Source: Terebella lapidaria (lineage: Eukaryota; Annelida; Polychaeta; Terebellida; Terebellidae). Taken from it: a DNA stretch of 64,000 bases. The notes under the pieces were generated by a model. It ran no database searches. It was not told the DNA's origin and saw only the letters and a list, made by a program, of their open reading frames with translations. Shown here in pieces: positions 1 through 51,526 of the stretch. Positions within the stretch are counted from its first letter, which is position 1. Each line of letters begins with the position of its first letter. Both the position numbers and the translations under genes were made by a program. The stretch is from assembly GCA_949152475.1 (NCBI GenBank), contig OX424559.1, positions 38,919,119-38,983,118 of the forward strand, given 5' to 3'.

Positions 1-340
1 CTTGAACTCAAGGATTTACGAAAAATTCTGCCATAAATAAATCGTATTCCTTGAAAACGAGTTGAAGGATGCAGAATATTCATCTTCATTTTTATGGGCT
101 TCAAAACGTACGTAATTTAATACAGACAGGAAAAGGTTACCTCCGTTGAAAGTTCAATGAATTCAGTTTAGTGAATAATTCACCTGTTTGCCGATATGTG
201 CTCGCATCATTTTTAAGGTTCTTCAATTGAATGGCGTTTTGTAACTTCATGCCGCCAATACTCATGTAATATTCCCTAGTACTTTGAAATCCAATCGTAC
301 TCGGACCGGGAAGTCAATCATCCGAGACGGCCGTGTATGT
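1..340. other. Left flank of the PLE array, nothing recognised
   Basis: AT-rich sequence with no convincing reading frame or repeat that I can match elsewhere in the window. It ends where the 3' end of the Penelope-like element begins, since similarity between the two element copies stops at this edge. I see no target-site duplication. Confidence 0.5.
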
Positions 341-449
341 GTTTTGGAGAGAATAAAAAATGCACTGGCACAAGATAATTGTAAGAGTAACACATAACAT
401 AAAACAGCAATAAAAATTCAATGAGCGACATTGAACAAATTTTGTTGGA

Positions 450-2753
450 TTATTTAAGTCTGCTTCTGACTAAAAGTTCTTTAAGGTTTTGATGCTTCTT
501 GTAAGCTGTTGCTATTTTAATATCACCATCAGTATTTTTGTTGAGTTGTTTCATATGCTTTTTAACAATTTGGGCCGAAAGAGCACCTGTTTTTGAGAAG
601 GGTACTATATACACCAGGTCGAATTTATTTTTACTTTTGTTCAAAGGGTCATACTTTGTAAATTTTTGAACGTTGAGGCCATGAGGCTCGAAAGTGCCTA
701 AAGTATCAATCCAACAATATTCCCTTTCAAGTCGCCATTGTTTGTTTAAAAGTTCATCACCAAGATCGGAAGCCTGTTCAATTGGTAAAAGAGAAAAACA
801 ATCGATGGAAAATTCAGTTTTGCTGTGAAATTTAGATAGATGACTGTATAATGCATTTTCCTCATTGCAGCTAGTTATTGCAGCACGGTGACGATTGTTT
901 CTGAATTTGAGTGATTTACCGGTTTCACCTACATATTGTTTTTCGCAAAGCTTACAAGTGTATAGATAAATTATATTTTCTGAGTTGCAATCCAAAGCTG
1001 AGTTGATTGAGTAGGTTTGTTCAAAAACTGATCCTGAGAAATTTTGACAATTTGGAACTAAATGACATGTTTGACATAGTCTAGAATTACAAGGTTTTGA
1101 GCCAGATGAGCTGGAAGTGGGCAATTGAAAATCAGCACCTAGCCTTTCCTCACTGTTTAGAATTCTCAATGTTTCATTCTTTATTTTGCGAAGCCAACGT
1201 TTTGAATAGTTACGTTTCGAAAGTGCCTTGAATAATGTTTGGCAAGCTAATTCAACATCATCTGGATAGGAGCAAATTTGGAAAAATCGAAAAACTTGGG
1301 ACTTGATTAGTCCTTTATAAGTGTGCTTTGGATGAAAAGAGAGCTTATGCAGCAACTGATGAGTATCCGTTGGTTTGAAGAAAACTTTTGCTTCTAATGT
1401 GTTTTCTTTGCTCCTGAACAAAGTAGTATCCAGAAAATTAACTGAATCAGTACTAATTTCAGCTTTGAACTTGATTGATGCCCTATGAGAATTGAAAATT
1501 TCGAGAAACTGATTAAATTTGGAAGTGCCGTGTGGCCAAATGAGGAAAATGTCATCTAAATACCTATAATAGCAATCTGGTTTGAATGGACACTTTTGTA
1601 AAGCTTGCTTTTCAAATTCAGCCATATAAATATCTGCATAATGAGGTGCATATTTCTGACCCATGGCTGTGCCTGAAACTTGTAGGAATGTCTTACCGTC
1701 AAATTCAAAGTCATTACATTTAAGTGAAATTTCCAATAATTCTATTATACCTTTGAATAGTTCATTGTTTTTCAGAGTCGGGAATGCATTTTTAATTGCT
1801 TGGATACCTTCTTCATGATTTATATTAGTATACATACTTTCAACATCTAAAGTGATTAGTAAAGAATTTGGATCTAGTTCAAGCCCTCTAACTTTATCTA
1901 AAAAGTCATACGTGTTTTTGATATATGACGGATGCTTATTTGCTTGATCTTTTATATATGAATCAATATACATAGCTACTTTTTCAGATTCACTGCTGCA
2001 GTCCGAAACAATTGGGCGCCCTGGAGGCATTACATTTGGAATTGGCCAGGAGTCTTTGGGTTTATGAATTTTAGGTAGCATATAAAATCTTCTTTGACGA
2101 GGGCGTTCTGGTGGTAAAAGAAATTGGAATACTTTTTCAGAAAGGCATCCACAACTGCGTAATCCTTTTAAAATTTTTGTTATTTTTTCTGAATTTTCTA
2201 AGTAAAGAGGAGTGTCAATTTCTCGGTAATGAGCTGGATTGTATAATTGACGAAGGCCTTCATTAATATAATTTTGCCTATCCATAATTACGACTGCACT
2301 ACCTTTATCTGCTTTTTTGATTACCAAGTCTACGTTATTTTGTAAATCCTTTATAGTTTTATATTCCATTTTCGTTAGGTTTTTGGTTTCTGGTTGAATT
2401 TTCAAATTTTCAATTTCTTTAGATATTGCCGAAATGCAATCTAAAACAGGCTTGTCAATCATGGAATTGGGTGGAGTCCAGGTAGATTTTGGAGTGAATT
2501 TTGATCTATTTGTAAATGAATTTGGACGGTGAGAAAAATAATTTTGAAGTTTGAGTTTTCTACCAAAATCTTGCACAGCTTGTTCAATTGGATCCAATGT
2601 TATTTTGGGTGTGGGAACAAAAGTCAAACCACGATTTAGAAGAGCGATTTGTGTGTCCGAAAGTGTAAATTTGGAAAGGTTTACAACATTATTAGTCGTA
2701 CTGGAGTTCGGTGGACTCTCAGAATGATTTAGTTTAAATGACTGAGCCAGCAT
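450..2753 (-). CDS. PLE ORF2: reverse transcriptase with C-terminal GIY-YIG endonuclease
   Basis: 767 residues, intact. It copies the element's RNA into DNA; the GIY-YIG nuclease is thought to nick the target. The N-terminus has the PLE-type segment LSKFTLSDTQIALLNRGLTF. The RT core shows MLPKIHKP, RPIVS, motif A LDVESMYTNI, motif B GTAMGQKYAPHYADIY and the catalytic YLDD near residue 397. A Cys-rich stretch (CNSRLCQTCH) follows. The GIY-YIG module lies near residues 593-625, with IIYLYTCKLCEKQY, VGETG and the Arg/His of NNRHR. The order RT then GIY-YIG is canonical for EN+ PLEs. The ATG overlaps the end of ORF1 by 25 bases in the -1 frame, so translation may come from reinitiation at this ATG or from frameshifting at 2732-2738. 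In the latter case the true protein is an ORF1-ORF2 fusion. Confidence 0.93.
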   Translation of the reverse strand: MLAQSFKLNHSESPPNSSTTNNVVNLSKFTLSDTQIALLNRGLTFVPTPKITLDPIEQAVQDFGRKLKLQNYFSHRPNSFTNRSKFTPKSTWTPPNSMIDKPVLDCISAISKEIENLKIQPETKNLTKMEYKTIKDLQNNVDLVIKKADKGSAVVIMDRQNYINEGLRQLYNPAHYREIDTPLYLENSEKITKILKGLRSCGCLSEKVFQFLLPPERPRQRRFYMLPKIHKPKDSWPIPNVMPPGRPIVSDCSSESEKVAMYIDSYIKDQANKHPSYIKNTYDFLDKVRGLELDPNSLLITLDVESMYTNINHEEGIQAIKNAFPTLKNNELFKGIIELLEISLKCNDFEFDGKTFLQVSGTAMGQKYAPHYADIYMAEFEKQALQKCPFKPDCYYRYLDDIFLIWPHGTSKFNQFLEIFNSHRASIKFKAEISTDSVNFLDTTLFRSKENTLEAKVFFKPTDTHQLLHKLSFHPKHTYKGLIKSQVFRFFQICSYPDDVELACQTLFKALSKRNYSKRWLRKIKNETLRILNSEERLGADFQLPTSSSSGSKPCNSRLCQTCHLVPNCQNFSGSVFEQTYSINSALDCNSENIIYLYTCKLCEKQYVGETGKSLKFRNNRHRAAITSCNEENALYSHLSKFHSKTEFSIDCFSLLPIEQASDLGDELLNKQWRLEREYCWIDTLGTFEPHGLNVQKFTKYDPLNKSKNKFDLVYIVPFSKTGALSAQIVKKHMKQLNKNTDGDIKIATAYKKHQNLKELLVRSRLK

Positions 2754-4465
2754 TTCAACATTTCATTGGCCGTTTGTTCCGTCCAATGAATGTTATCTGG
2801 CTGTGTAGAGAACCTGATTGGATCCAATTGTTTAACAACTGTGAGATTGCTGAAACGTGAACTCATGTCATCCAAAGCCCTGTTAATCATATCCATGTTG
2901 CGTTTCTCTACAGACGGAAGATTGTCTGAGTAGTTAATTTTTGGAATAAGAATTTTGGAGTGGGGGAAGATTCGGAAAGCACTGCTGAGCATATTCCTCA
3001 GCTCTGGAATTGAAGTAACACTTGGTTTGGAGCTTCGATTGTTCAGGCCAACACTTAAGATTAAGTTTTTGGGGGCATCAAATGATTTTTTACAGGCCGT
3101 GAACATCATTCTGAGATGGTTGAACAAAGCTCCAGGATAAGACACAACTTGGATATCACTGACGGGGGATTTGGTGATGCGAGAGAGGTTAGAAGAGCCG
3201 AGGACGACAGTGGAGGAGGTTAGTCTAGGAAGGGCCCAAAGAGTCTTGGGCCCTCTGATAGTGGAAGGAGAGACATGGAAAGTGGTGTTAGGAGAGTTTT
3301 TAGGAGAGGCAAAGCGAGAGCGTTTGCCTTTAGGTAGAGAGGAGGGTGAGAGTTCAGGAGAAGAAGGAGAGCGCGGACGCCGTTTGGGCGTGGCACTAAG
3401 GCGGTTATCAGGAGAAGAGCGAGAGAGAGGTGGCCAATCATCAGATGATGAGAGGCAAGGAGGATTAGAGAGAGTGTCCAGGAGTTGGAAGCGGTTAGAA
3501 GTGGACACAGAGGGAAGGGTTTTAGGGAGGGTGTTATTTGAAAATGGAGGTGAAGAGCGAGAGGGTTTAGGATTGTTAGTAGGAGAGTTGGCACGTTTTA
3601 GGTCCATTAATAGGCGGCCAAAGAAGTTAGAGCCTTGACCATGACGATTAACACCCCAGTGGCTGTCAGGAACTGGATGGACAATGTGACACCCTTCAGG
3701 TAGGCCCATCAGAGTGTCACGGAACAATTTGCAAGAATTAAACTTAACTTGGAGAAGTTGACGCATGATTCCATTTTTACTTTTATGCCAGAATGGGGAC
3801 AGGCTAGGGATTTCACTAGCCAAACGTTTAGCCACTCCTGCATGGGGAGCCCTAAGGATCCGATTGGCTAGGTGTTGACAGTCATGGTACCGGGCTTTGT
3901 GATACTGATAGATGTGCTCAAGGCTAGGGAATCTCATACCACGATAGGATATATTACATGGGAAGAAATTACTAAGTGGGTGTTTGTGACCTTTAACCTC
4001 ACAAGTCTGAGGTTTGGATTGAGAGTTAGAATTTGGAATAGGGGAATTTGGAAGAGTGGAGCTTTTGAATTTCTGGATGGTGGAAGCCTGAAGTTTTTTG
4101 CCGAAATGAGATTTAGCCTGCTGAATGACGAGAGCTACCGAATTTGCAATGTCCGAATCAGATAAACCTAAAGAGGAAATGTGGGCCAAAAGGTTTTGAA
4201 TTGAGCTCTCGTAGTGTTCCACCAATTGTTCGGTCACGTTTTGTACCCAATTTTGATTGATTTTGGAGATTTTTTGTTTGATCAGAGGACCAGAACAAGC
4301 AGGTTTAATGAAGTCATCCAGGTGTTGTTGTTTTTTACTGAAAGCCCTGGTGACTTGGCCTTGAGACTGCTGGAGCATTAGTGAAAGATGGTGAAAGCAT
4401 TGAAGAAGAGTGTAAAAAGAACGGAAGTGAGGAGGTTTGGAAAGAGCCATGATACGTTTCAGCAA
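2729..4465 (-). CDS. PLE ORF1: NADAR (YbiA-like) domain fused to SGNH hydrolase domain
   Basis: 578 residues. Residues 60-130 look helical. Residues 162-290 match the NADAR/YbiA family: LSNFFPC, then FPSLEHIYQYHKA with the conserved Glu183 of the S-x-E-H motif, FWHKSKNGIMRQ with Trp226, and PDSHWG with Trp270 near the end, closing with FFGRLLMDLK. These are the positions where the family has its active-site Glu and Trp residues, so the fold looks catalytically intact. Residues 300-410 are a basic Ser/Pro-rich linker with nuclear-localisation-like KRRPR and KGKRSR. Residues 417-578 match the SGNH family: GSSN (Ser425, with the usual Asp replaced by Ser), Gly445, GLNN (Asn475) and DNIHW (Asp557, His560). 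NADAR proteins cleave N-glycosidic bonds and some remove ADP-ribose from guanine. SGNH/esterase ORFs are known in CR1 elements and rotifer PLE terminons. The start could be Met1 or Met6. Confidence 0.85.
   Translation of the reverse strand: MLKRIMALSKPPHFRSFYTLLQCFHHLSLMLQQSQGQVTRAFSKKQQHLDDFIKPACSGPLIKQKISKINQNWVQNVTEQLVEHYESSIQNLLAHISSLGLSDSDIANSVALVIQQAKSHFGKKLQASTIQKFKSSTLPNSPIPNSNSQSKPQTCEVKGHKHPLSNFFPCNISYRGMRFPSLEHIYQYHKARYHDCQHLANRILRAPHAGVAKRLASEIPSLSPFWHKSKNGIMRQLLQVKFNSCKLFRDTLMGLPEGCHIVHPVPDSHWGVNRHGQGSNFFGRLLMDLKRANSPTNNPKPSRSSPPFSNNTLPKTLPSVSTSNRFQLLDTLSNPPCLSSSDDWPPLSRSSPDNRLSATPKRRPRSPSSPELSPSSLPKGKRSRFASPKNSPNTTFHVSPSTIRGPKTLWALPRLTSSTVVLGSSNLSRITKSPVSDIQVVSYPGALFNHLRMMFTACKKSFDAPKNLILSVGLNNRSSKPSVTSIPELRNMLSSAFRIFPHSKILIPKINYSDNLPSVEKRNMDMINRALDDMSSRFSNLTVVKQLDPIRFSTQPDNIHWTEQTANEMLKCWLSHLN
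2732..2738 (-). promoter_or_regulatory. Candidate -1 ribosomal frameshift heptamer U UUA AAC
   Basis: On the minus strand ORF1 ends CAT TTA AAC TAA. The heptamer T TTA AAC is in the zero frame and is followed immediately by the stop. A -1 slip makes the next codon CTA, which is exactly the ORF2 frame (CTA AAT CAT). U UUA AAC is among the most efficient known eukaryotic slip sites. I see no strong downstream stem-loop by eye, only a weak 4-bp GAGT/ACTC stem. Reinitiation at the ORF2 ATG, 15 bases before the heptamer, is the alternative. Confidence 0.6.
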
Positions 4466-5257
4466 TTAATTTTGAAAGTATTAAAACCAGAACGAATTTG
4501 ATTTGGATGATAAAACCGAAGGATAAAATTATAAAAATAAAAACAATTGTATAAAATGGAAACAAAACGTTTGAAGAAGCCTGAATGCAAAGATATGGTC
4601 AATAATCTGACCAGATCTAAAACAAAACAAAATAATACAAAACAATATCAAAAACGGTTACTCACAATGTACTCTGCCTGTTGCACGACCGGTTTCGGAG
4701 TTGAATCCTTTGTCAAGTGCTGAAGTCTAAAGAACCTACTGTGGTTGCAGTATTTATAGGAAATATTGGCTTGTGCCAATGTCAATTTTGTTTGAGTAAA
4801 TCAATTAACAGTTTTCCAATGGTTGAGCAAATCAATTAGCAGTTTTCAGAACAGTTTGCCAAGAAAAGTGACATATGTTGAGTATAGATATTAACAGTTA
4901 ATGAATTCAATTGTTTTTGATATGCGTATCTGACGCTGAGTAAAACAATTAGCAGTTAGTTGATTGACAAACATAATTAACGTTTGAAGTTATATTTTCT
5001 GAAGTATGCTAAAATAAATAATTTTCAAAATGGTATTACTGCGGTGCTTTCCAGCAATAGATTCTTAGGCAGAGATTTTATTAGGCATGAAATTGTTTTT
5101 TGAAACTGAAGATGTGTCAAATTGACTTGCATTGCTTCAGGAGACTTCAAATAAAATGAGATGAAATAAAAACAAAATGTACTAAAATGAACTGAAAAAC
5201 AAAATATTTATAAAATGTGTTTTGACCCTTACAATATGCTAGGCACGGGCTAAGTAT
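4466..5257 (-). other. PLE 5' untranslated region
   Basis: About 790 bases between the ORF1 start and the junction with the upstream copy. No coding frame. It is AT-rich with short internal repeats such as AGCAGTT after AATCAATT. It contains a hammerhead-like motif at 4683-4720. It would be expected to carry the promoter in the pseudo-LTR layout. Confidence 0.6.
4683..4720 (-). ncRNA. Degenerate hammerhead-ribozyme-like motif
   Basis: Minus-strand order: GCAC, then TTGACAA where a CUGANGA core would be, a short GGA/TCC hairpin, GAAAC, CGGTC, then GTGC, which pairs with the first GCAC. This is the strand order of a minimal type-I hammerhead, with GUC as cleavage triplet. PLEs are known to carry such ribozymes in their pseudo-LTRs. 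Two core positions deviate, including the G8 general acid, so self-cleavage is doubtful. Confidence 0.35.
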
Positions 5258-7220
5258 GTTTTGGAGAGAATAAAAAATGCACTGGCACAAGATAATTGTA
5301 AGAGTAACACATAACATAAAACAGCAATAAAAATTCAATGAGCGACATTGAACAAATTTTGTTGGATTATTTAAGTCTGCTTCTGACTAAAAGTTCTTTA
5401 AGGTTTTGATGCTTCTTGTAAGCTGTTGCTATTTTAATATCACCATCAGTATTTTTGTTGAGTTGTTTCATATGCTTTTTAACAATTTGGGCCGAAAGAG
5501 CACCTGTTTTTGAGAAGGGTACTATATACACCAGGTCGAATTTATTTTTACTTTTGTTCAAAGGGTCATACTTTGTAAATTTTTGAACGTTGAGGCCATG
5601 AGGCTCGAAAGTGCCTAAAGTATCAATCCAACAATATTCCCTTTCAAGTCGCCATTGTTTGTTTAAAAGTTCATCACCAAGATCGGAAACCTGTTCAATT
5701 GGTAAAAGAGAAAAACAATCGATGGAAAATTCAGTTTTGCTGTGAAATTTAGATAGATGACTGTATAATGCATTTTCCTCATTGCAGCTAGTTATTGCAG
5801 CACGGTGACGATTGTTTCTGAATTTGAGTGATTTACCGGTTTCACCTTCATATTGTTTTTCGCAAAGCTTACAAGTGTATAGATAAATTATATTTTCTGA
5901 GTTGCAATCCAAAGCTGAGTTGATTGAGTAGGTTTGTTCAAAAACTGATCCTGAGAAATTTTGACAAATTTGGAACTAAATGACATGTTTGACATAGTCT
6001 AGAATTACAAGGTTTTGAGCCAGATGAGCTGGAAGTGGGCAATTGAAAATCAGCACCTAGCCTTTCCTCACTGTTTAGAATTCTCAATGTTTCATTCTTT
6101 ATTTTGCGAAGCCAACGTTTTGAATAGTTACGTTTCGAAAGTGCCTTGAATAATGTTTGGCAAGCTAATTCAACATCATCTGGATAGGAGCAAATTTGGA
6201 AAAATCGAAAAACTTGGGACTTGATTAGTCCTTTATAAGTGTGCTTTGGATGAAAAGAGAGCTTATGCAGCAACTGATGAGTATCCGTTGGTTTGAAGAA
6301 AACTTTTGCTTCTAATGTGTTTTCTTTGCTCCTGAACAAAGTAGTATCCAGAAAATTAACTGAATCAGTACTAATTTCAGCTTTGAACTTGATTGATGCC
6401 CTATGAGAATTGAAAATTTCGAGAAACTGATTAAATTTGGAAGTGCCGTGTGGCCAAATGAGGAAAATGTCATCTAAATACCTATAATAGCAATCTGGTT
6501 TGAATGGACACTTTTGTAAAGCTTGCTTTTCAAATTCAGCCATATAAATATCTGCATAATGAGGTGCATATTTCTGACCCATGGCTGTGCCTGAAACTTG
6601 TAGGAATGTCTTACCGTCAAATTCAAAGTCATTACATTTAAGTGAAATTTCCAATAATTCTATTATACCTTTGAATAGTTCATTGTTTTTCAGAGTCGGG
6701 AATGCATTTTTAATTGCTTGGATACCTTCTTCATGATTTATATTAGTATACATACTTTCAACATCTAAAGTGATTAGTAAAGAATTTGGATCTAGTTCAA
6801 GCCCTCTAACTTTATCTAAAAAGTCATACGTGTTTTTGATATATGACGGATGCTTATTTGCTTGATCTTTTATATATGAATCAATATACATAGCTACTTT
6901 TTCAGATTCACTGCTGCAGTCCGAAACAATTGGGCGCCCTGGAGGCATTACATTTGGAATTGGCCAGGAGTCTTTGGGTTTATGAATTTTAGGTAGCATA
7001 TAAAATCTTCTTTGACGAGGGCGTTCTGGTGGTAAAAGAAATTGGAATACTTTTTCAGAAAGGCATCCACAACTGCGTAATCCTTTTAAAATTTTTGTTA
7101 TTTTTTCTGAATTTTCTAAGTAAAGAGGAGTGTCAATTTCTCGGTAATGAGCTGGATTGTATAATTGACGAAGGCCTTCATTAATATAATTTTGCCTATC
7201 CATAATTACGACTGCACTAC
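5258..7220 (-). mobile_element. Penelope-like retroelement, 5'-truncated copy
   Basis: Matches 341-2303 of the full copy and then stops abruptly inside ORF2, where sequence of a dispersed repeat (also at 9868) takes over. It sits immediately upstream (minus strand) of the full copy in the same orientation. This is the usual product of PLE retrotransposition and gives the pseudo-LTR structure. Confidence 0.9.
5367..7218 (-). pseudogene. Truncated, frameshifted PLE reverse transcriptase / GIY-YIG
   Basis: Same protein as ORF2 of the intact copy from AVVIMDRQN onward. One extra A at about 5968 (GACAAATTTGG here, GACAATTTGG in the intact copy) breaks the frame between RT and nuclease. A substitution changes QYVGETG of the GIY-YIG module to QYEGETG, placing a charged residue in the YIG-equivalent strand. 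The RT half still has YLDD. Upstream of 7218 the open frame continues by chance into flanking repeat sequence that adds about 33 hydrophobic residues. Not expected to be functional. Confidence 0.9.
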
Positions 7221-7652
7221 ACACGCAGAACATACTGAGATGGACATATAATGTAAACAGACTAAACACGAAATATATAAAGACAAAAAGCATCACAATG
7301 GTACACTGGCACATCAGGTTGTTAACATCGACAATTTGAGACCAGCCAAATCAGTAATAGTGCAGACTATATTGTGTGGGAAGTTTATGTGAAGTGAATG
7401 TAAAAACACCACAATAACTGAATGTTTGATATGGCATGTAGACTTTATGCTAGTGAGATTGAGTGTGGAAAGGAAAGGTAATTGTTTATATATTGCGCGA
7501 GGAGTTTTGTGAAGACATCAATAATTTTTTTTTATTTGAACTCATTGATATTGTGTTTTGAAGTTTTGAGACCAGTTTCTGGCTATTGTGTCAATACACT
7601 TCCACACACGTGAAACAAACTAATACGTGGATCAATATCAGACATCAATAAT

Positions 7653-8300
7653 TGAAAGGTGGACGCTTCAGCTCGAAGCACGCGTTGCCCCGGCAACATC
7701 CTCTAATCCTCTTATCCACTATACTGAACACTGGCTGCTTATGTCATCTCTAGTGCTCTAGCCTCTAGTATAAATACTGTGGTCACATTTTGTGTGGCCG
7801 GAGTTGTCTCAGAGACTGAGCACGACAGGTGAGCTCACGCCATGGGCTCCTTGTCTCTGTTCAAGTAAAGGCAAGTCAGGCCTCAGGGACGACTTCCATA
7901 GGGGGCCCAGGTGGGGGGGACCGTTGCTGACTCGGGGGCTCACGCCCTGTGAATCACTGGTTTCTCTGGCAGACCATCGGGCTGTCCAGGGTTCTATCCC
8001 TGCGGCAGTGCCGTCGGCGAGGCTGGCCAGCAACATGCCCACGTGCGTGAGTTCTGTGGTGCCGCTCCCATGGCATCTCAGGCTCCGCACACGGCTACAT
8101 TACCATAACTATGTACTATGCATGTTGTATATGATGTTGTTGATGTTGTTGATGATGATGGTGATGGTGATGGTGATGTGTTATGATGTGATGTATGACG
8201 GCCGGACTCGTCCGGACGGACTGTTACCTGGTTGTAGTGCTAGTAATTACCGACGCCCGCCGCGTGCGCTCTGTGCGGGCTGCGGGCGTCGAACTTTACA
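7653..8300 (+). mobile_element. Divergent solo LTR, third member of an LTR family
   Basis: It interrupts the duplicated segment. It shares with the LTRs at 13865 and 56643 a block around CGTTGC..GGCAAC, a TATA box (AGTATAAATACTG, about 7766), a GC-rich block (CATAGGGGGCCC, GCTGACTCGGGGGC) and the end ACTTTACA at 8300. The left border is uncertain; I place it at TGAAAGG. The frames inside it are not genes. Confidence 0.6.
8104..8195 (+). repeat. TGATGT/TGATGG microsatellite
   Basis: Imperfect run of GTTGAT, GATGAT and GGTGAT triplet pairs inside the divergent LTR copy. Simple slippage repeat. Confidence 0.75.
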
Positions 8301-15215: not shown

Positions 15216-16142
15216 ACAAATTTTTGGTTTACCACCAGGATCGCCACCATGTAAATCGGGTATAGATAAACCATAGAAACAGTCTACTGTGCCATATAAT
15301 ACAAAACGTAATAATGTTGCATTGAATTTTGTCATGTTTGTTTTTGCATAATGCAGACAATAGATATGACGTTTTTGTACTTTTTGGGCATAATAGACTG
15401 TTTCAGAGCCCCAAAAGCACATGGCATCAGCAGGTACCCCATTATGAACAGGTCAAGATTACTCCGAAAAATTAATAAGTTTTTTTCGCAGTGTCACTTA
15501 TCAGCCACTGTATGAATCTATTCGCAAAACAGAACACTGATTTATTCCTGAAAGTTACAAAAGTATGATTATTTCTCCCATTTCGTTGCTTTTTTCAGGG
15601 ACAATATTCTATGAATAACTGTGATTAATTCATTCTCATGTAGCTTTCATTCGAATATAATACATTTGTTTATGTTTGTGAGATCAGCCAAGATGTTCTG
15701 TGAACATCTACTTGAATATATTATGAAGAATATATTATGACATCGACATAAACAGCAACAGTGTACCGGGTCCAGGCGCAACATTGGTCTGGTCCCAACA
15801 GTTTAAATAGCGAGACAATGATTCAATATGTTCAGCGGGAAATATAGCATTTATGAAATTTAATCCGCGTTCACGACTTACATAATTGTCACACAAACAC
15901 ACACACACACACAAACATACAACAGCACGATTCATGTTTTTTCCGCCACATGAATGTTGTGTTTTTCAGTACAGGACTTCCATGCGAGCTGTAATCCGTG
16001 TTCTACAGTTGACACGGTTTAGAAACCACACAATTGAATCTTCGCATTTACCGATTTTATCGTGCTTTCTAAGTGACTCATCCACTAATTACCACATTTA
16101 TTTCGACATTCTTGCACGCCTCATGATTACATTTTTTGCACT
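15216..16142. other. Intergenic, nothing recognised apart from a short CA repeat
   Basis: AT-rich with a (CA)n run at about 15893-15915. No convincing gene. The small frames here lack motifs. Confidence 0.5.
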
Positions 16143-16330
16143 TGTTTTGTTTCGAGTATCGATGTATACAGTTGCCTTTGTTTTGTTTCGAGTATCGATG
16201 TATACAGTTGCCTTTGTTTTGTTTCGAGTATCGATGTATACAGTTGCCTTTGTTTTGTTTCGAGTATCGATGTATACAGTTGCCTTTGTTTTGTTTCGAG
16301 TATCGATGTATACAGTTGCCTTTGTTTTGG
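16143..16330 (+). repeat. 36-bp minisatellite, about five copies
   Basis: Unit TGTTTTGTTTCGAGTATCGA plus TGTATACAGTTGCCTT. Because 36 is divisible by 3, every frame that is open in one unit stays open, giving artificial repeated peptides such as VLFRVSMYTVAF. Units are nearly identical, so the expansion is recent or homogenised. Confidence 0.9.
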
Positions 16331-25264: not shown

Positions 25265-27918
25265 CAGGAGTAGTAGGCCCTAAGTAGTATATACCCCCTT
25301 TATATTCATGTAGAGAATAAATACATAGATGTAAATGTATGTGATATATTTACATTGATCATTGGACTTGTGATTTGAGAATAATTGAACCTGTTTCTTA
25401 CCCCCCCCCCCCCCCCACCCCTTTGTTTCCAAAAGTCTAGATCCTGTAATGAAAGTGAATTATCCCATGCATGTCTTCCTTGCAGTAGAAAACGCAATTA
25501 TGTAAGCCCGAAAGTTTGAAAATCATACCATATATTCTATTCTCAGACGGTTACGTACTTTTCCAAAAATAGCCGATTAGTACATCATGAATATTCATAG
25601 ATTTTGTAGACAAGTGCCGTGCACTTTTTATGTTAGTTGGATGCAAACAAAGTGTTCTTATCTTTCGCATTTGATATATGACTGTATAATTTATTGTGCA
25701 AACGCTTCGCGGGAACAAGTGAAAAGAGTAGGTTCCGTGAAATTTATTATCGCGTACTTATTACACGCCCTATAACACACAACGGCGAGGCGTGGGCGGG
25801 AGGCTTGGGGCTTACATGGGGTGGTCGATTCACGCTCTTATCTGCTAGTTTTGATCGGTTATCGATCCAGGCGGGACGCTATCAAGTCAGTGGCAATTTG
25901 GCGGATATCTCCATATTCTAGAATTTGAATTTAACAAACTTTAACACATTAGCCTGGCCCACAGTGAATAATACTGATGTAAGGCGCGAGTTTTGAAGTG
26001 TGAACTTTGAAACACAACCAGCAAACATAACTGCGCCTGAGTTAATCATGTTATGTAGCATGAGTCCAGCCGTGTGTGTGAGCCTGACACTTTTATGCTG
26101 ATCGGTCTCCCCGTTTTGGGGAAAACGATTATGATGTAGGCTACCATAAATTAATTACTACATGTCATTCAAGTGTTGGTTTGATTTGATGAAAATTTAT
26201 ATTTGAAATGAAACATGAAGCAATGCCACTGAGTAATTTCTCACAAAACCATATTAATTCAGGATTGGCTTTGATATTGAGTGTGAATGTTCTAATTACT
26301 AGCACTATACGCCTACGCCACTACTTCATACCTTCAGAGCTCTATTACTTTTCTGTTTCTGATTCATATGTTAGCTGTTAGACAAGTTGACGTGGGTAGT
26401 GAATACAAGTGGGGATTATTGGTAACCCCGCGTGCGATACCGCTATGTTATCTGAAATATCACCAGTGACCTCGAGGGATTACACTTCTGTAACACCCTG
26501 TAACATCAGCTTGTCGTCTGCTCCGTCTGTATGATGTGGACGGTTTATGCTACCTTGTTAGCCAATGATTCCCCCATGTGTTAGGATAGGTTTCCTGTTT
26601 CTTCTGACACTGTGGCACTTCTGGGCTGCACACAGAGAAACAAACAGAAGCAGCGTCCCGAGAAAACAAATGATCCCTTTGTTGTGGGACGCTGCACGTG
26701 TTTGGTTAATTTTGTTTGCGTCTGGGGACTATTTTCTATACTTTGTGTATCAATCCGCGGGGAAAAAACTCGTGGTAATTATGGCAATCTTTTTATGTCA
26801 ACTCAGTGTGAAAGTATAGATGTATTAGACAGAACTTGGAAAGACTCTAACTATAACTTTGACAGTTTGTAAAATGTTATAAGTTAACATATATTGTATA
26901 TCAGTGATCTATTGTATATCAATCCATGCATGTATAGGCTAATGATAATGTCGTCTGGCTTTTGATTATTGCTGGCCAGACATTTTGTATAATGACAACA
27001 AGTACAGTATGTCTCCATGTATAGGCAACATTTTGAAAGGAAGTTACTTTGACTGTCGGATGTGTAGTCATCAAGTCCTCAGTTTATTTTGATAGAGGTG
27101 TTAAATGTTTTCTGGGGGCTCTTGAAGGCGTCAATGGCTTGGTCCAAACACAAAGTTGTCGCACGACGTGTGTTGGAATGACGCTGACTAGTCAACAGAT
27201 CAAAACCGTGTATTGTATCAGGATAATTTCGCTAGAAGGGGTGCTTTTTTCGATTTTACAAAACCGCAGGATTGTGGTTTTATTGAAGTCCAACCGTTTC
27301 ATACCTCGGCAAAAACATGGGGTATTATTAGGCGACTACCATATTTGAGCGTGTGTGGGCCAAGGGCGGCATCATGAGAATTATTGGAAATTGCTGAAGT
27401 GCCACACACGTTTCCAAGACGCAAACCATTACGACGACGCACTAGTATATTGTCGTCTGGCAATAAAGTAAAACGTGTTTATCTGTCGTTCAGTTCGGCC
27501 TTTAACAGCTTTCACTCGACAAATTAACCTTATTTTATTGTTTTATATTCACAGCTGGAACGAAGAACTACACCAGGGAACCGCGAAACGCATGGACCAA
27601 ACCGAGCGTGACCGAGTCAGTGTCTCAGGAAGCGAGCTCTTTACAGTTCCCACGCATTACCACCATAGACCAGAGAACAAGCCACAATAGATTAATTTGA
27701 GTGTATCACGGACTCATTAAACAGTCAATTACTGTGCTTTTCGAGAGAAAAATGGGCTAGAATAACCTATTTAAATTGTTCTAATTGCATGATCGAAGCA
27801 GACAATAACATATCCAAGAAGGGACGAATCTGTGCATATAGGCCTAGTCCTGTATAGGTCTTAACTTAGATTTTGCAAAGAATTTATATTGAATTCTCTG
27901 CAAGAACTGGAGTTGACG

Positions 27919-30900
27919 ATGATCCAGACAGATATGCTGTCGTCGTTCCGAAGCCAGGGATCTGTTGATTCTCTGGACAGTTCCCCTCCCTCCGCCTCCC
28001 CACCTCTCCTCACCGGCCGCTACGCTACCCCGGATCCACAGGCATACAGGGCTCAGTCGCCATGGACACCGCTGTCCAGCGCGGAGGAATCCGACTCCGA
28101 ACTCAGTGACATCAGTACATCCTTGCTGATGGTTGGCTCGTTTGCGCGCTCGAATACACTGGGCGAGCTAGGAGGCTTTGATGCGGCCGAATCTCCGCGC
28201 CTCGATTGTTTCTCCTCGCCGACAGTGCTGCTGGAGGACGGAGATATCGTCGACATTGCGTGCGACCTGATGGAGGCGAGTGAGTGTCCACCAGACGTGA
28301 AACATGAACAAAACAAACAATTTTGCGATGTATCTCTCTACGCTTCTGGCGCAGAACAAAGGGATTACTTAACCCCGTCTGTCACAAATCCACTCCATGT
28401 ACTTCCGCCAGGGAAACCGACACCCGTCAATCACCCCCTGACTGACAATCTCGTCGCCATGGATACCCAGGTGCGTAAACATACTGGAACTTTCCACAAG
28501 ACTGATCTCTGTCCAACGACGGGGAAACACAAACAGGACATGACCAGCCAATGTGAGCTTCCCGATGATTGTCTATCGGCGAACTATAGCAAATCTCCAG
28601 GGAAGCGGCCCCCGTCATACGACGAGCACATCGCGCGGGCCGGAACTGCTTCCGGTCAGGCCGGAATGGTCGTCATAAAATCGGAAAGCGATCCGGAATC
28701 GGACGCAGACTGTAAGATGGAGGGCTTCGGTGGCAACCACTGTGTGTTTGGAGCGTCTACGTTCGAGCCGTCACCGTGTGGGAGCGTGGCCTGGACACCA
28801 GTCGGAGCGACCAGCCCCGGAGGCGAGCCGCAGCTCTACGGGGCCTCGGGAGCGGGCCAAGGCTTCCGACCAGCGAGCCAAGGTAAACTGCGCCCCGGGG
28901 AGTGGCTTAGTAACACCGACACCCTTGGGGTTAATTTGTTCTTAATTTAGAGCAAATGTGTGTAACCGTTGACCAGTGTTGATGCGGCGAGGTGATGGGT
29001 GAACTTGAGTTTACATATTTTAGCAAATTAATTAACTGGACCTAATCAGTTCCGAGTTCCGTTTAACCGGTTTTATATAATTACTACGTATACATCCTGA
29101 TATCTGCATTAACAATGACACATTTTGTACATCATGCAGCCATACAGTAGAGAAGTGAGAATGAATTTCATCTAATGTTCAAGCGTTTTGAATTGCTAAT
29201 ATGCACTGATCTGCGATATTGATTTTTTATATGAAATTTCACCTAAATCTGTCTGTAGCATAAAATTTGCAGGCCTAATTATTCCAGTGTAGTGTGAAAG
29301 GGATTTCTTTTAACTTGTGTAACACAGTAGCAAAAAAATACGAATTGCACCTGATAAAGTAGATAAATTTAGTTGTGAAACAATCAACCCACTAGAGCGT
29401 CATATTTAATGCGTCATATATAGCGAATTAAACGTTGAAAAGAATTAAACGTATATCGTATAATGTTTGTTTCTTCACAATGAAACGTAAATTAATTTCG
29501 TGGCGCAGGTAGTTGATCTGTAATTGTATCAAAGTGTTCATTACACTTCATCTTGTACCCTAACATAGTAAGACGTCTTTGGAGATTTGGTTGAAAGAAA
29601 ACGTTTCAAATAGTGAATACATTACCACATATCACATTCTGTGTGTATCATTGTTTAAGTTTATTTTCACTATATTTTGAGGTCTTGTTCAGTATCTCGG
29701 TTTGAATAACAAAGTCAGTGATTGTTGTACCACAAGAATTAACAATACCACAAACGAAACAATCCTGTCTATATGTCGGAACACACACGTAAACAGTTAT
29801 AAACGAAAATAAGTTGTAAATTAAAAATAAACGCCAGATGATTTAATGTTGTGAGCAAGACGGCTCGCAGAATTGACTATTGTGCGAAGAACGGTGACGG
29901 ATAAAAAACGGAAAAGCGCAAATAATCAAATTATTGTTTTCCGTATTGCAATGCAACAACTTTACCAACAATGGACCCATTCTTGCGACGGTAAACGAGC
30001 CACTTGCTTTCGTGTGTCGAGTATCGTACGAGACAACCTAAACATGTTTATATTGTTCGAAATTTTGCTGTTTTTTTTAACCATGCACGTATATTTTACA
30101 TGTGTACATATTTTAGTAATCAATGGTGTCAAGGATGGGTTTCTTCAATGTTGCACGAATAAAAAGAGAGAAAAAACGTATGCTATTTGAATAAACATAA
30201 ACGTAAACTGTTATTGTTGTGAAATACACTGTACTGTGAAATTTGTATTCTGCTAAACACGATATCAAACTACCAACACTATATTTTCAATACCATATTT
30301 TTTTCTATGAACAGCCCAATACTATATTTTTTTTATTATGAACAGCCCTATATTTCATCTTTCCCATAATAAATTACCTGTAACTAAGTTTTGACGTAAT
30401 ATGGAGGTCATTCAACTTTTTTTATGTCAGTCTGCGTCATACTCTATATATTTGGCGATACGTATATGAAACAGTTGTCACTGAATCACACACAATGTTT
30501 GGTTTCAGGACCGCGATAACAATATTGAATTCGATTCAAGTCGTGCCAAGAAATACAAAAATACTCCCAATGAAACCAACTAGTTATGAATGGGACTAAA
30601 AATCATTTGTATGATATTACAAACAGACTGTTAAGTGTTGACATTAGAAAATTGTCTGTTATTGGACTAATGCAGCTGACTGACATACGTCTTCAGTTCA
30701 AAATGTGAACTCCCCAAAATTGTTTGAGGCTTCATCAGATTGTAGATTGGAAATTTTAATTTTTAGTTTTGAGGTAGACGTCAAAAACTTGGTAAAATTT
30801 CGGCTTTGACATCCAATTACATGTCGGACATACCACATTTCGAGATGATTAAATGATCCAAAACGAAAGTACGGCGAGAAGCGTATTTGATTCCTAAATG

Positions 30901-32233
30901 AAGTGGAGCGACTGGTTTATGGTACATGTACTTCGTATCCTGATCTCCGGGACAATCACACCATGCATTCGCGTCATCGCGTGTCTATAGGCCTACTTTG
31001 ATTATGTATTCGGCTCTCACGGACAATCATATCCATAAAGCCAATTCGTTACCACTGCAATTTCCTTATTTCATTACGTCCATACCCGGAAATTAATGAT
31101 TTAATCAAGAAAACTACACTTACAAAAAAAAATCTGAAATTAACTGTGATCTGTGACCCCCCCAAAATGAACATTGTGCACAAAGCAAATAATTAAACCG
31201 AAAATATCAGTGAAATGTGTTACCTAAATCAGGAAGATTAATCAATGCGGTGAAATGTTACAATACTAAACCTGCTATTTTACCCACCAATCAGAAAACG
31301 CACAGTATTATTACTGGAATCACACTTTAGTTGCTTAGGTATTGGTCAGTTACAACGGAACGTTTATTGATATTTTGCAGACATGTGTTACCAGCAATCC
31401 AGCTTCCTTCCGCCGGCGCATGCGCACTCACAGCTATTCAACAGTTCCGAGAGTTTACAAGCAGCCGACCAACTACGGAAAAAGTCGCTATTCTACAGAC
31501 ATCTCGCCTCTATTTGTCAAGGTTGGTACACGTACATCATGAGACACGGTCCTAAATATTGGTGGCAGTTGTATTTGAGCCATGCTAACAAGCGAAACAG
31601 GGTGATTTTGACCGCGGACGATGACATTGTGTTGCAGGCACAGGGCAGATCCAGCTGTGGCAGTTCATCATAGAGATGCTGTTGGACCCAGCCACGCACG
31701 CTAGCTGTATTCGCTGGGAAGGCGAGCTCGGCGAGTTCCGGATGGTCGATCCGGAGGAAGTAGCAAGACGCTGGGGCAAGCGTAAAAACCGCACCAACAT
31801 GAACTATGACAAGATGGGTCGCGCTTTGAGATACTACTATGATAAGCTGATTCTCACCAAGGTACAGGGTAAAAAGTACACGTATCGGTTTAATATCAAT
31901 GTTCTGCTGAGGATGTGGAGCAAGAGTCTTGGGTACAACACCATCCGCAATCCCGTCAGCCACCTTGAGCATGAACTCTCATTACACGGGATTTCAATGA
32001 GACCTCACGGGATCGCGACTGTGGCGCCATCTGTGTCAGCACACGCGCATGCGCATAGCCAGGCAGTTGCGCAGAACGCCAGGGCGCACGCCGTAACCAT
32101 GGCAACCCACCACGTGCCACATGAGGGCCAGAACGGCGCCGGAACTACTTTCTCGTCGTATCAACCGCAGGACGGCTATCAGACGTATATTCATCCACAT
32201 ACACGGCCTATTTCAAATTGTTGTGATTTCTGA
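27919..32233 (+). CDS. ETS-domain transcription factor (ERG/FLI/ETV2-like), three coding exons
   Basis: Model: exons 27919-28882, 31381-31521 and 31638-32233. The donor sites are AAG|GTAAAC and AAG|GTTGGT, the acceptors TTTTGCAG and TGTTGCAG. Both introns are phase 1 and the joined frame is 566 residues. The ETS domain spans about 372-454: [27 protein letters not shown], the recognition helix [11 protein letters not shown] with both DNA-contacting Arg (430, 433), and KKYTYRF. A final exon that starts just before IQLWQF is typical of ERG/FLI genes, and the motifs are closest to that group and to ETV2. I see no PNT/SAM domain. Exon 1 is Ser/Pro-rich with acidic patches and two SUMO-type motifs, VKHE (Lys128) and IKSE (Lys254). 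The C-terminus is His/Ala-rich. The ATG has A at -3. An acceptor at 27554 (TATTCACAG) suggests a 5'UTR exon from 27555, with a short upstream ORF at 27592-27690. Confidence 0.88.
28883..31380 (+). other. Intron 1 of the ETS gene
   Basis: 2498 bases from GTAAAC to TTTTGCAG, AT-rich. The frames inside it are short and featureless. Intron 2 (31522-31637, 116 bases) is compact. Confidence 0.8.
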
Positions 32234-33689: not shown

Positions 33690-34757
33690 TCGAAATTAGC
33701 CCAAAGGCTAAGAAAGGTTACCGGACAATATTTGTTGTATATTTTAGATAGTAGCCAATTTATCCCGTGACCTTGAAATTAACGTCACTGGTCAAGCAGT
33801 AAAGTCGACAATAAGCGTGATGTTAGCCATTTTGTGCCCTGACCTTGAAAATAAGGGTAAAGGTCCAGATCAAAGGTCAAGGTCAAGAGAATAATTAGCA
33901 CACAACCTTTCCTATATGTTCAAAATTGATTCCTAAGCTGTAAAGTCGATAATAAGTTAAATATTAGCCACTTTGTGCTCTGACCTTGAAAATGAGGTCA
34001 AAGGTCAAATTCAAGGTCACGACAATACTCAGCATATATCATTTCCTATCTGTCCACAATTGATTGCTAAGCTGTAAATTCAATAGTAAAAGAGATATTA
34101 GCAATTTTGTCCTGTTACATTGAAAGTCAATCGAAAGTCAAATTAAACGTCACCAGAGTGTTCGACATATATCATTTCCTGTATGTCCACAATTGATTGT
34201 CAAATTGTTGATAATATTAGCAAATTTGTCCTTGAAAATGTCCTGTGACCTTGAAAATGAATCAAAAGTCAAATTAAAGGTCATCAGAGTATTCAACATA
34301 TCATTTCCTGTATGTAGACAATTGATTCTCAAATTGTATAAAGGAAACGAGATATTATTCATTTGTCCTCTGACCTTGAAAATGAGGTCAAAGGTCAAAA
34401 CCAAGTTCATGGCAATATACAGCATAAACAATTTCTTATATGTTCACAATTGATTCCTAAGATGTAGAGTCGATAATAAGCGAGATATTAGCCATTTGGG
34501 GCTCTGGCATCGAAAATAAGGTAAAAGGTCAAGTTCAAGGTCATGAGAATATTCAGCATACATCATTTCATATTTCTATTGGTTCCTAAGCTGTAAAGTC
34601 GATAATAAGCGAGATATTATCCATTTTGTGGTCTTACATTGAAAATGAGGTCAAATTCAAAGTCGCCAAAATATTCGGCATACATCATTTTCTATATGTA
34701 CATAATTTTTTATTCCCAAGCTGTAAAGTCGATAATAATCGAGATATTCGTCATTCT
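33690..34757 (+). repeat. 135-bp satellite array, block 1
   Basis: Starts at a unit edge (TTAGCCCAAAGGCTAAGAAA, GGTTACCGGAC). It is followed by about seven diverged units of some 135 bases containing CACAATTGATTCCTAAGCTG, GATATTAGCCATTTTGT, TGACCTTGAAAATGAGGTCA and TTCAAGGTCA. Each unit carries several AGGTCA half-sites, for example AGGTCAAAGGTCA at 33995-34007 and 34385-34397. It is interrupted at 34758 by the TIR element. Non-coding. Confidence 0.85.
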
Positions 34758-35469: not shown

Positions 35470-36240
35470 CAGGAAAAATTAGCCCAAAGGCTAAGAAATG
35501 TTACCGGAGAAATGTACAGTGTTAGGTCACAAAGTCTGCAATGGTAATTTTTCAACAATGTCTGCCCAGGGGGAACATTGTTTTCTATATGTTTACAATT
35601 GATTCCTAAGTTGGAGAGTCGATAATGAGCGAGATATCCATTTCTTTGGAAAGTCGATAATGAGCGAGATATTATCCATTTCGTGCTCTGACCTTGAGAA
35701 TAAGGTCAAAGGTCAACTTAAAGCTTATGACAATATTCGCCATATGTCATTGCCTATATGTCCACAATTGATTCCTAAGCTGTAAAGTTGATAATAAGTA
35801 AGATATTAGCCACTTTGTTGTCTGACCTTGAAAATAAGATCAAAGGTCACGAAACCTTTCAGCATATATCATTCCCTATATGTCCACAATTGATTCCTCA
35901 GCTGTAAAGTCGATAATATAAAGCGATATATTGGCCATTTTGTGCTCTGACTTTGAAAATGAGATCAAGGCCAAATTCAAGGTCATCAGGAAATTCGACG
36001 TATATCATTTCCTATATGTCCACAATTGATTCCCAAGCCATAAAGTCGATAAGGAGCAAGATATTAGCCATTTTGTCCTGTGACCTTGAAAATTAGGTCG
36101 AATGTGAAATTCAAGGTTATGAGAATATTCAGCACACACATTTCCTTTATGTCCACAATTGATTCCTAATCTCTAATCTCAATATTAAGTGAGATATTAG
36201 CAATAATATGTCCCATTAAAAAGCAGAAGAGAATTTAACA
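35470..36240 (+). repeat. 135-bp satellite units inside the TIR element
   Basis: Starts at the same unit edge as block 1 (ATTAGCCCAAAGGCTAAGAA) and contains about five units, including a DR1-type AGGTCAAAGGTCA at 35703-35715. Either the element captured satellite or a later satellite element inserted into it. Confidence 0.75.
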
Positions 36241-37908: not shown

Positions 37909-39711
37909 TTACTTATAATCTCCTTTGATGATGTCAGCTGCTTTTTCTGCTATCATCACTGTAGGCACATAAAGTCCACCAGACACAATCTTGGGCATGA
38001 TGGAGGCATCGACGACCCTGAGACCCCGTAAACCCCTCACTCGAAGGCCAGGGTCCACCACGGCTTTAGTGTCATCTACTGCACCCATTCGACATGTACC
38101 CGTCATGTGGTTCAGTGATATTGCCATATGACGCAGGTAGCACTCCCAGTATGGATCACTATCATACTCAAAACTATGACACTTTGGATGAGTACTATTG
38201 TCCAATGCAGCTCCAATTTCTTCGAATGCTTTGGTCTGCGCAATCTTCTGACCAAACCGAATACCTTCAATGAAGCTCGTGATGTCGTCTTGATCTGACA
38301 GGTAATTAGGATCAATGAGCGGATACTCGAAGGGGTTCTGAGACAGCAACCTCAATGTGCCGCTGTTTTTCATGTGTAAAAGAAACTGTAGGATGTGAAC
38401 ACCGTGTCTGTTCTCAACACCGCCATGACACGCCTCGAAAACACCGTCCATCAAGTTCATAGAATGAGAGAATCCGTCGGAAGCTTCCTTGCTCACGGCG
38501 TACAGTATTTCCGCTGGGTCGACCATCAAATGGGGCACCTTGTGATCTTTTTGTTGGCTCTTCGTTGATATAAATGCCGAAGCAGCAAGTGCACATGGGT
38601 TAGCGAGTTGTCCAGTTCCGAACAAAGCATGTTTGAGCCTCTCAAACGGAGTGCCGAGTGTTTCAGGAGTAATTGCCACGGGCTTCGAAAGTAACACTTG
38701 TGGACTGAGGCACATCATTTGGTCCTGGAAATTTTCACCAACGGGCAAATCTGCCTCAACTTGGATATGCAGTTCTTCGAGATGCCACTTCGGTCCCACC
38801 CCAGACAGCAACAGTATATGCGCAGACCCCACTGTGCCACCCGACAAGATGATTTCCTTGTTGGCTTTGACTTTCTGCAACCTGCCATTCCGGACAAACT
38901 CGACAGCGGTGGCCTGACCAGACTCAATATGCACCTTGGTGACGTGAGCCTCAGTCAGGAGGTGAACGTTTGATCTTTGCAGTGCCGGGCGGAGGTAGGC
39001 GTCAGCTGTGGACCAGCGAGCACCGTTCTTCGTTGTGGCCTGTACCTGGCTGAAAATTCCATCTTGTTCTGGCCCATTGTTGTCCCCAAGTTTGTATCCT
39101 AGTTCCATCCCAGCCTTTTGGAAAGCCTCTCCCACTGTAGAATTATTATCGGAAACTATCAGTGGACCGCTATCACCATAGTAACCAGACTTAACCAAGT
39201 CCGGATTCTGTATTGATTCGGCTTTCATGAAGTAAGGGAGAACATCTCTGTACGACCATCCTTCACAGCCAAGTTCTTCCTTCCAATAATTGTAGTCTTC
39301 TGCACTACCACGGATGTATATCATACAGTTCAGGCTACTGCTGCCACCTAGCATTTTACCACGCGGCAGTGCGCATCGCTTGTCCTTCATGGACTGACAC
39401 GCGTGTTTTTGAGGTTCCGTGAGGTACATCCAATCAGCAGCAGGGTTACCCCAGACTGCTGTAGCCTGCAGTGGGACTGATACAGTTGGAAACAACTGGT
39501 CATCAACACCTGCTTCCAAGACTAGAATCTTCCACTCCGCTAGTTCTGACAGACGATTTGCTAGAACATTGCCAGCAGTACCAGCTCCGACAATGATGAA
39601 ATCATAGGCATCACCCAGGATGTCTCTGGACGTGGCGCTGTTCTGTGGCCTCTCCCACTGGTGCACGGTGTACGCTATCAGTATCGTGAGAAGGACACTT
39701 TTCCAGTCCAT
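37909..39711 (-). CDS. GMC-family FAD-dependent oxidoreductase (choline/glucose dehydrogenase type)
   Basis: 600 residues in one coding exon. It oxidises an alcohol or sugar substrate using FAD; the substrate is unknown. A hydrophobic N-terminus (residues 5-18, VLLTILIAYTVHQW) suggests a signal peptide or anchor. The ADP-binding motif VGAGTAGNVLANRLSE lies at 41-56. GMC signature 1, RGKMLGGSSSLN, is at 117-128 and signature 2-like GTVGSAHILLLSGVGP is in mid-protein. The C-terminal NHMTGTCRMG supplies catalytic His535, followed by VVDPGLRVRG and VVDASIMPKIVSGG. Family members usually have GNTNAPT at the second catalytic position; here it is GGLYVPT, so Asn/His is replaced by Tyr581. Length is normal for the family. 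A splice acceptor (GGATTTTCAG) ends at 39738 on the minus strand, 26 bases before the ATG, implying a 5'UTR intron and supporting this start. Confidence 0.92.
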   Translation of the reverse strand: MDWKSVLLTILIAYTVHQWERPQNSATSRDILGDAYDFIIVGAGTAGNVLANRLSELAEWKILVLEAGVDDQLFPTVSVPLQATAVWGNPAADWMYLTEPQKHACQSMKDKRCALPRGKMLGGSSSLNCMIYIRGSAEDYNYWKEELGCEGWSYRDVLPYFMKAESIQNPDLVKSGYYGDSGPLIVSDNNSTVGEAFQKAGMELGYKLGDNNGPEQDGIFSQVQATTKNGARWSTADAYLRPALQRSNVHLLTEAHVTKVHIESGQATAVEFVRNGRLQKVKANKEIILSGGTVGSAHILLLSGVGPKWHLEELHIQVEADLPVGENFQDQMMCLSPQVLLSKPVAITPETLGTPFERLKHALFGTGQLANPCALAASAFISTKSQQKDHKVPHLMVDPAEILYAVSKEASDGFSHSMNLMDGVFEACHGGVENRHGVHILQFLLHMKNSGTLRLLSQNPFEYPLIDPNYLSDQDDITSFIEGIRFGQKIAQTKAFEEIGAALDNSTHPKCHSFEYDSDPYWECYLRHMAISLNHMTGTCRMGAVDDTKAVVDPGLRVRGLRGLRVVDASIMPKIVSGGLYVPTVMIAEKAADIIKGDYK

Positions 39712-51523: not shown

Positions 51524-51526
51524 CAC
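49133..51526 (-). pseudogene. Non-LTR retrotransposon RT, truncated at the N-terminus
   Basis: About 797 codons open, but the first codon at the element edge is GTG and no ATG precedes it, so this is a truncated ORF2 without its APE endonuclease. RT motifs are intact: KGKGDLTNPDNYRGI, AFVDYKKAFDKVDR (motif A), GVRQGENLSPLLFAIFLND (motif B) and LLYADDTILLA with the catalytic YADD near residue 402. The C-terminus has a CCHC knuckle, CHLC..HYVFQC, near 725-745. Motif style fits the Jockey/CR1/L2-type assemblage; I cannot fix the clade. The frame is otherwise undamaged, so the insertion is young. Confidence 0.88.

Follow-up and report, generated by a model that had tools for sequence, protein, structure and literature searches.

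A NADAR domain and a probable SGNH esterase in ORF1 of a putative Penelope-like retroelement from Terebella lapidaria

Results

Organization of the retroelement

The window analyzed in this study is a stretch of 64,000 nucleotides of Terebella lapidaria DNA (contig OX424559.1, positions 38,919,119 to 38,983,118 of the forward strand) and all the coordinates given here refer to it. A full retroelement unit of 4917 bp was found on the minus strand at 340..5256, as delimited by a repeat spacing of 4917/4918 and by blastn. This unit is the downstream member of a tandem. Reading along the minus strand, a 5'-truncated upstream copy (5257..7220, minus strand) that retains part of the reverse transcriptase (RT) gene, the endonuclease and the 3' end, and lacks ORF1, comes first, and the full unit adjoins it head to tail. 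The plus-strand blastn alignment of 340-2302 with 5257-7220 covers 1964 aligned columns with 2 mismatches and 1 gap (99.85% identity), and it is this one-base gap relative to the full copy that splits the frame of the upstream copy into two ORFs (5367-5912 and 5938-7314). The element appears to be young and intact. The window also holds an ORF with an ETS domain (PF00178, E 1.9e-28; best PDB match FLI-1, E 4.3e-31), and ETS factors are, to our knowledge, animal-specific, which marks the host as an animal.

ORF2 (450..2753, minus strand) encodes 767 aa in which the Pfam scan located an RT followed by a C-terminal GIY-YIG-like endonuclease. The RVT_1 match spans residues 286-429 (1467..1898, minus strand) at E 9.8e-12 and 45.4 bits, above the cut-off of 29.6, with a YLDD motif at residue 398, and judged by this profile ORF2 is a reverse transcriptase. 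The GIY-YIG match at residues 594-649 (807..974, minus strand; E 0.0027) scores 18.4 bits, which is below the cut-off of 22.6, and the C-terminus of ORF2 is probably a GIY-YIG endonuclease. The RT models of NCBIfam (Drt2, group II intron and retron) matched ORF2 far below their cut-offs, and no match to ORF2 was found in the PDB at E 0.01.

Partial head-to-tail tandems with a 5'-truncated upstream copy are typical of Penelope-like elements (PLEs), and an RT, a GIY-YIG domain and such a tandem arrangement are known together from endonuclease-bearing PLEs. The RT and the partial tandem observed here fit a PLE, as does the weak match to GIY-YIG. The RVT_1 match and the tandem agree with the PLE identity given in the original prediction, with the GIY-YIG domain seen under its cut-off. 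The hammerhead ribozyme, a motif known in PLEs though not in all of them and not counted as required, gave no match up to E 10 in positions 1-8000 of the window. No Rfam family matched at the gathering cut-off over the window, and positions 1-8000 gave two unrelated matches with E-values of 1.4 and 4.1. A target-site duplication was not found; when about 45 nt from one end were compared with 50 nt from the other, the longest word in common had 4 nt.

Layout of ORF1

The frame of ORF1 is open at 2729-4465 on the minus strand, where the TTG at its edge is the limit of the frame only and not a demonstrated start. From the first ATG at 4450 to the stop at 2729 the frame encodes a protein of 573 aa (2729..4450, minus strand); residue numbers in this study follow the open frame of 578 residues. 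Given the base composition of the stretch, 573 consecutive open codons have a chance probability of about 9e-12, and the frame is therefore not a chance run. A leader of 806 nt (4451..5256, minus strand) with four ATG triplets inside lies 5' of the first ATG. At the other side, the end of ORF1 and the start of ORF2 overlap by 25 nt (2729..2753, minus strand). It had been predicted that ORF1 lies inside a 4917-base tandem unit and overlaps the RT ORF, and both the overlap and the blastn repeat confirm this. A candidate explanation in which ORF1 is part of a LINE nested in the unit was rejected, since the overlap with the RT start argues against it.

Four regions were distinguished in ORF1, all given here on the minus strand. 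The N-terminal region (residues 6-150, 4016..4450) belongs to no family, with sub-threshold Pfam matches only, the best of which is the Sey1 three-helix bundle (E 0.047); this region is perhaps helical, and a crude heptad count over it was uninformative. It is followed by the NADAR domain (residues 160-291, 3593..3988), then by a Ser/Pro-rich linker (residues 296-410, 3236..3580; Ser+Pro 41%) and finally by a probable SGNH esterase domain (residues 411-578, 2732..3235). The linker carries a net charge of +12, in agreement with the basic linker that had been described between the NADAR and SGNH blocks.

ORF1 was seen once and has no second copy in the window because the upstream copy ends inside the RT gene, and the truncated copy is therefore unable to confirm ORF1. 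The G+C content by codon position is 0.473/0.440/0.435 in ORF1 compared to 0.421/0.340/0.269 in ORF2, a difference that would fit modules of different origin or history. Both of these observations speak for a NADAR-SGNH ORF that is a chimera private to one copy, built from captured host or foreign sequence, and not a standing part of the family. However, the intact 573-aa frame and its overlap with the RT start argue against such a chimera, and the esterase is a domain kind already known in PLEs according to PMC3905857. We consider this explanation unlikely.

Profile matches of the NADAR domain

The NADAR domain of ORF1 was matched by curated profiles. PF08719 in Pfam matched residues 160-291 at E 6.4e-16 and scored 59.5 bits, well over its cut-off of 35.1, and among the eight ORFs of the window scanned with Pfam the NADAR match occurs in ORF1 alone. 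phrog_1017 in PHROGs matched at E 9.5e-26. Up to E 10, three PDB sequences were matched, namely E. coli YbiA (2b3w, E 4.3e-10), a NADAR (8bau, E 1.2e-5) and a stathmin construct (E 3.1). With the NADAR region as the tblastn query, 233 of 50,697 phage records and 13 of 72,556 plasmid records were matched, and identity is below 60% in all of the best 30 of 233 phage matches and the best 12 of 13 plasmid matches. On the strength of these profiles ORF1 is the carrier of a NADAR domain, just as the original prediction had it.

The NCBIfam model TIGR02464 matched ORF1 as well (E 6.3e-17), and this match would agree with a metabolic N-glycosidase that acts on intermediates of the riboflavin pathway in the way that bacterial YbiA does. 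Its score of 62.2 bits, however, falls below the equivalog cut-off of 73.7, and such an activity would seem to bring no evident gain to a retroelement. A role in riboflavin metabolism is accordingly regarded as highly improbable.

Conservation of the NADAR pocket

In an alignment with ten phage or plasmid NADARs and a YbiA fragment, where the identity to ORF1 ranges from 26.0 to 33.8%, six residues (E183, K190, W270, G271, N280 and G283) were found to be the same in all eleven comparators. Two of the eleven have Asn in place of D267, and two have Phe in place of W226. E183 and K190 align with residues E43 and K50 in the NADAR from P. nicotianae, and W226, D267 and W270 align with W89, D130 and W133 of YbiA. 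The residues E43, K50, R79, W89, R93, D130, W133 and E125 are described in PMC11543638 as being either at the bound ADP-ribose or catalytic. Apart from E125, five of these seven pocket residues are kept in ORF1 (E183, K190, W226, D267 and W270). The equivalent of R93 is K230, a position at which YbiA also has Lys, and the equivalent of R79, which contacts the ADP-ribose, is S217, in a variable column where 28 of 81 comparators have Arg and 25 have Lys.

These 81 comparators consist of 80 viral NADAR loci (the best 80 of 388 relatives) and YbiA. ORF1 keeps 30 of the 41 columns conserved at >=80% among them, or 29 without counting the doubtful E257, and the last NADAR motif is conserved by construction in this comparison since a pattern for that motif was used to collect the viral loci. 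The conserved columns that are kept include E183, K190, K241, D267, G271, N280 and G283.

The class acid in the last strand differs by type, YbiA-like NADARs having Glu, BC4488-like ones Asp and phage ones His (PMC11125620), and this Glu/Asp/His position separates the NADAR subfamilies (PMC11543638). When the equivalent residue of the E. coli C7 NADAR, D171, was changed, efficient activity was lost, as described in the latter source. The corresponding column (Glu125 of YbiA) holds Glu in 70 of the 81 comparators. Four alignments of ORF1 disagree at this column, with V262 in two of them, a gap in one and E257 in one. Placing E257 there needs a five-residue deletion together with a four-residue insertion, and the insertion occurs in none of the 81 comparators. 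The interval bounded by a conserved Leu and a conserved Asp is equally long in ORF1 (252-267) and YbiA (115-130), and for this reason V262 is favored at the class-acid position, with His263 beside it. Judged from these alignments, the class acid has probably been lost in ORF1, and Val262 is the simplest reading of the column. The earlier statement that ORF1 has all the expected catalytic-type residues is correct for E183, W226 and W270, but it was too strong as a whole since the equivalent of Glu125 is probably missing. If His263 fills the class-acid place, the objection to catalysis weakens; a NADAR of the His type from an E. coli phage is reported in PMC11125620 to be active in vitro.

That the class acid has probably been lost favors a NADAR that binds without cleaving. 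Such a domain would serve as a non-catalytic module of the RNP that binds nucleic acid or ADP-ribose, or has a structural role, in place of the RRM or zinc knuckle of other ORF1 proteins. Residues 150-295 of ORF1, which include the NADAR domain, are basic with a net charge of +13. In the account given by PMC3905857, the esterase-bearing ORF1 proteins of RepBase are without structural RNA-binding domains, and the nematode NADAR protein SNA-3 is described as working with the SL1 snRNP (PMC9303266). On the other hand, the five pocket residues are kept in ORF1, and mutation of the residues homologous to those critical in YbiA impaired the function of SNA-3, although its authors note that folding was possibly affected (PMC9303266). 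A purely non-catalytic NADAR is, in our view, possible but less likely than not.

The probable C-terminal esterase domain

Four blocks of the SGNH type occur in order in the C-terminus of ORF1: GSSN (423), PGA (444), GLNN (473) and DNIH (557). Among 200,000 shuffles, none matched the stricter pattern of four ordered blocks and six matched the looser one, both patterns having been composed after the sequence was viewed. PF13472 (Lipase_GDSL_2) matched at E 0.11 when the C-terminal 168 residues were scanned alone, where its 13.5 bits lie below the cut-off of 32.9, and it was absent from the Pfam scan of the whole ORF1 at E-values up to 1. No esterase family was found in NCBIfam with the whole ORF1 or in PHROGs with the C-terminus. 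The sole PDB match to the C-terminus up to E 10 is 4c1b, annotated as 'ORF1-encoded protein' (E 0.45), which we take to be the ZfL2-1 esterase and which aligns gap-free through blocks II and III. A tblastn search of 72,556 plasmid records with the esterase domain returned one unrelated match at E 3. Taken on these blocks, the C-terminus of ORF1 is probably an SGNH esterase; the four blocks that had been predicted do stand in order, but the profile support for the domain stays sub-threshold.

Searches for relatives

Pattern scans that reach close relatives only were carried out on viral and genome contigs. For ORF1, five stretches in viral contigs and 61 stretches in genome contigs matched the pattern and none was confirmed at this reach; for ORF2, nine stretches in viral contigs matched and again none was confirmed. 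At E 0.01, no match to an RT or to an esterase came from the viral NADAR loci, of which the best 80 of 388 were scanned. Two sets of candidates were set aside as chance. The first is a viral contig with a degenerate PLE RT pattern, the five listed ORFs of which look phage-like, and the second comprises 13 bacterial contigs with a near-identical PLE RT pattern in which neither ORF1 nor ORF2 had a convincing match (best E 0.096). No PLE RT relative emerged from the searches with ORF2 and these patterns.

Discussion

Proposed role of the NADAR domain

Our preferred reading, to which we assign a probability of roughly one half, is that the unit is a young endonuclease-bearing PLE with a Gag-like ORF1 protein (ORF1p) whose NADAR domain removes guanine-linked ADP-ribose. 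If the plan of the ZfL2-1 protein is followed, ORF1p would be a Gag-like RNP protein that packages the RNA of the element. The N-terminus would multimerise ORF1p, nucleic acid would be contacted by the basic linker, and perhaps by NADAR as well, and the esterase would meet lipid. Set between these parts of the plan, the NADAR domain would bind and probably hydrolyse ADP-ribose joined to guanine on the element RNA, on the cDNA or at the target site, and host ADP-ribosylation might thereby be kept from blocking an RT or integration step. Removal of guanine-linked ADP-ribose by the NADAR of the element is plausible, and the joining of NADAR to a domain that is probably of a lipid-esterase type suggests an element that may undo a chemical mark made by its host.

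The chemistry of such a mark has been described for other systems. For the N2-guanine ADP-ribose linkage, which is made by pierisin/CARP-1-type enzymes and by DarT1, NADARs were the first hydrolases to be demonstrated (PMC11543638); the action of NADARs on CARP-1 products is called an assumption in the same source. Six edible clams were found to ADP-ribosylate DNA at guanine-N2, and one of them was the source of purified CARP-1 (PMC11209040). For the NADARs of eukaryotic RNA viruses, PMC9503650 proposes that macromolecular ADP-ribosylation by host enzymes is the main target. The original prediction had named PARP-type marks, and a plausible and more concrete form of the mark-erasing idea would place pierisin/CARP-1-type enzymes there instead of PARPs.

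A broader and bolder version of this idea would make NADAR a counter-defence module of unrelated retroelements (brown-algal Gypsy, oyster Tx1 and PLE), which erases the guanine ADP-ribose put on retroelement RNA or cDNA by animal pierisin/CARP-1-type or other host ADP-ribosyltransferases (ARTs) while the esterase handles a membrane step. We think that this version has little chance of being correct in full. If it were true, ADP-ribosylation of bases would be a defence against transposons. Apart from this version, retroelements that are not related to each other and have repeatedly taken up the same ADP-ribose enzyme would hint at a host pressure common to them.

Comparison with known systems

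Neither NADAR nor the esterase is new to retroelements since both have been described in other elements. Esterases in PLEs are described for RepBase examples (PMC3905857) and for fish and molluscan PLEs of the Neptune-like kind (PMC5408684), and GDSL esterases are among the extra ORFs of the rotifer Terminons, the RTs of which are of the PLE type (PMC6431247). NADAR occurs in an Ectocarpus Gypsy, in the N-terminal part of Pol, and apparent NADAR domains occur in the ORF1s of Tx1 LINEs from the Pacific oyster, Crassostrea gigas; the processing of an RNA intermediate is suggested as their role (PMC12477816). The open-licence literature searched yielded no description of a PLE with NADAR, nor of any retroelement that combines NADAR with an esterase. 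The earlier remark, that no described PLE with NADAR was known to its author, holds for PLEs in that literature, with the qualification that Gypsy and Tx1 NADARs and PLE esterases were already on record. With the present element, PLEs would become a further group of retroelements with NADAR, and a single Gag-like protein would probably combine this domain with an esterase.

The esterase-bearing PLEs resemble the present element in having a PLE-type RT with an extra esterase (probable in the present element), and differ from it in that the descriptions in PMC3905857 and PMC5408684 mention no NADAR. The Ectocarpus Gypsy and the C. gigas Tx1 elements, which are likened here by description alone, are similar in that NADAR lies inside a retroelement and, in the case of Tx1, inside ORF1, but they belong to other retroelement classes and no esterase is mentioned in their description in PMC12477816. 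The ORF1p of ZfL2-1, an element of the CR1 clade, has a plan of coiled coil, basic motif and esterase, and its esterase, an active enzyme, binds to negatively charged phospholipids (PMC3905857). It shares with ORF1 a basic motif before a C-terminal SGNH esterase (probable in ORF1), whereas no NADAR is mentioned for it in that account and its RT comes from another clade. Finally, the NADAR/YbiA family, with YbiA of E. coli, the DarT1-linked and phage NADARs and the polyprotein NADARs of animal RNA viruses described in PMC9503650, is like ORF1 in its profile match and in five pocket or catalytic residues. ORF1 differs from this family in that its class acid (Glu, Asp or His) has probably been replaced, and in that its NADAR domain sits in a retroelement.

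Coding sequences and tandem repeats

An ETS-domain ORF with FLI-1/ERG as its nearest PDB entries occurs at 31676-32233 on the plus strand, and its presence marks the host as an animal. An ORF located upstream (27889-28950) gave no match in the Pfam search and could represent a further exon. A GMC oxidoreductase of 600 amino acids is encoded in one frame on the minus strand at 37909-39711 (PF00732, E 1e-47). Two additional reverse transcriptase ORFs were identified by Pfam on the same strand, at 49133-51526 and 60914-63928, the latter of which is LINE-like because Exo_endo_phos endonuclease models match it as well.

Five tandem arrays of a 133-134-bp unit, containing TGACCTTGA and AGGTCA words, were found at 33794-34755, 35858-36201, 40731-41324, 41806-42459 and 60349-60742, with the last being oriented opposite to the other four. 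Shorter units were observed in a perfect 36-bp tandem (16142-16329; 5.2 copies, 100% match) and a 50-bp tandem (54889-55754; 17.3 copies, 86% match).

Leader of the probable Penelope-like element, and a plasmid NADAR gene

By eye only, GAAAC adjoined by a short stem was observed in the leader at 4681-4720 (minus strand), a stretch reminiscent of a decayed hammerhead core; Rfam gave no support for a hammerhead there up to an E-value of 10 when window positions 1-8000 were scanned.

A Curtobacterium plasmid NADAR gene (L008, 67-486) is flanked by nicotinate phosphoribosyltransferase and NUDIX genes; its neighbourhood is one of NAD metabolism.
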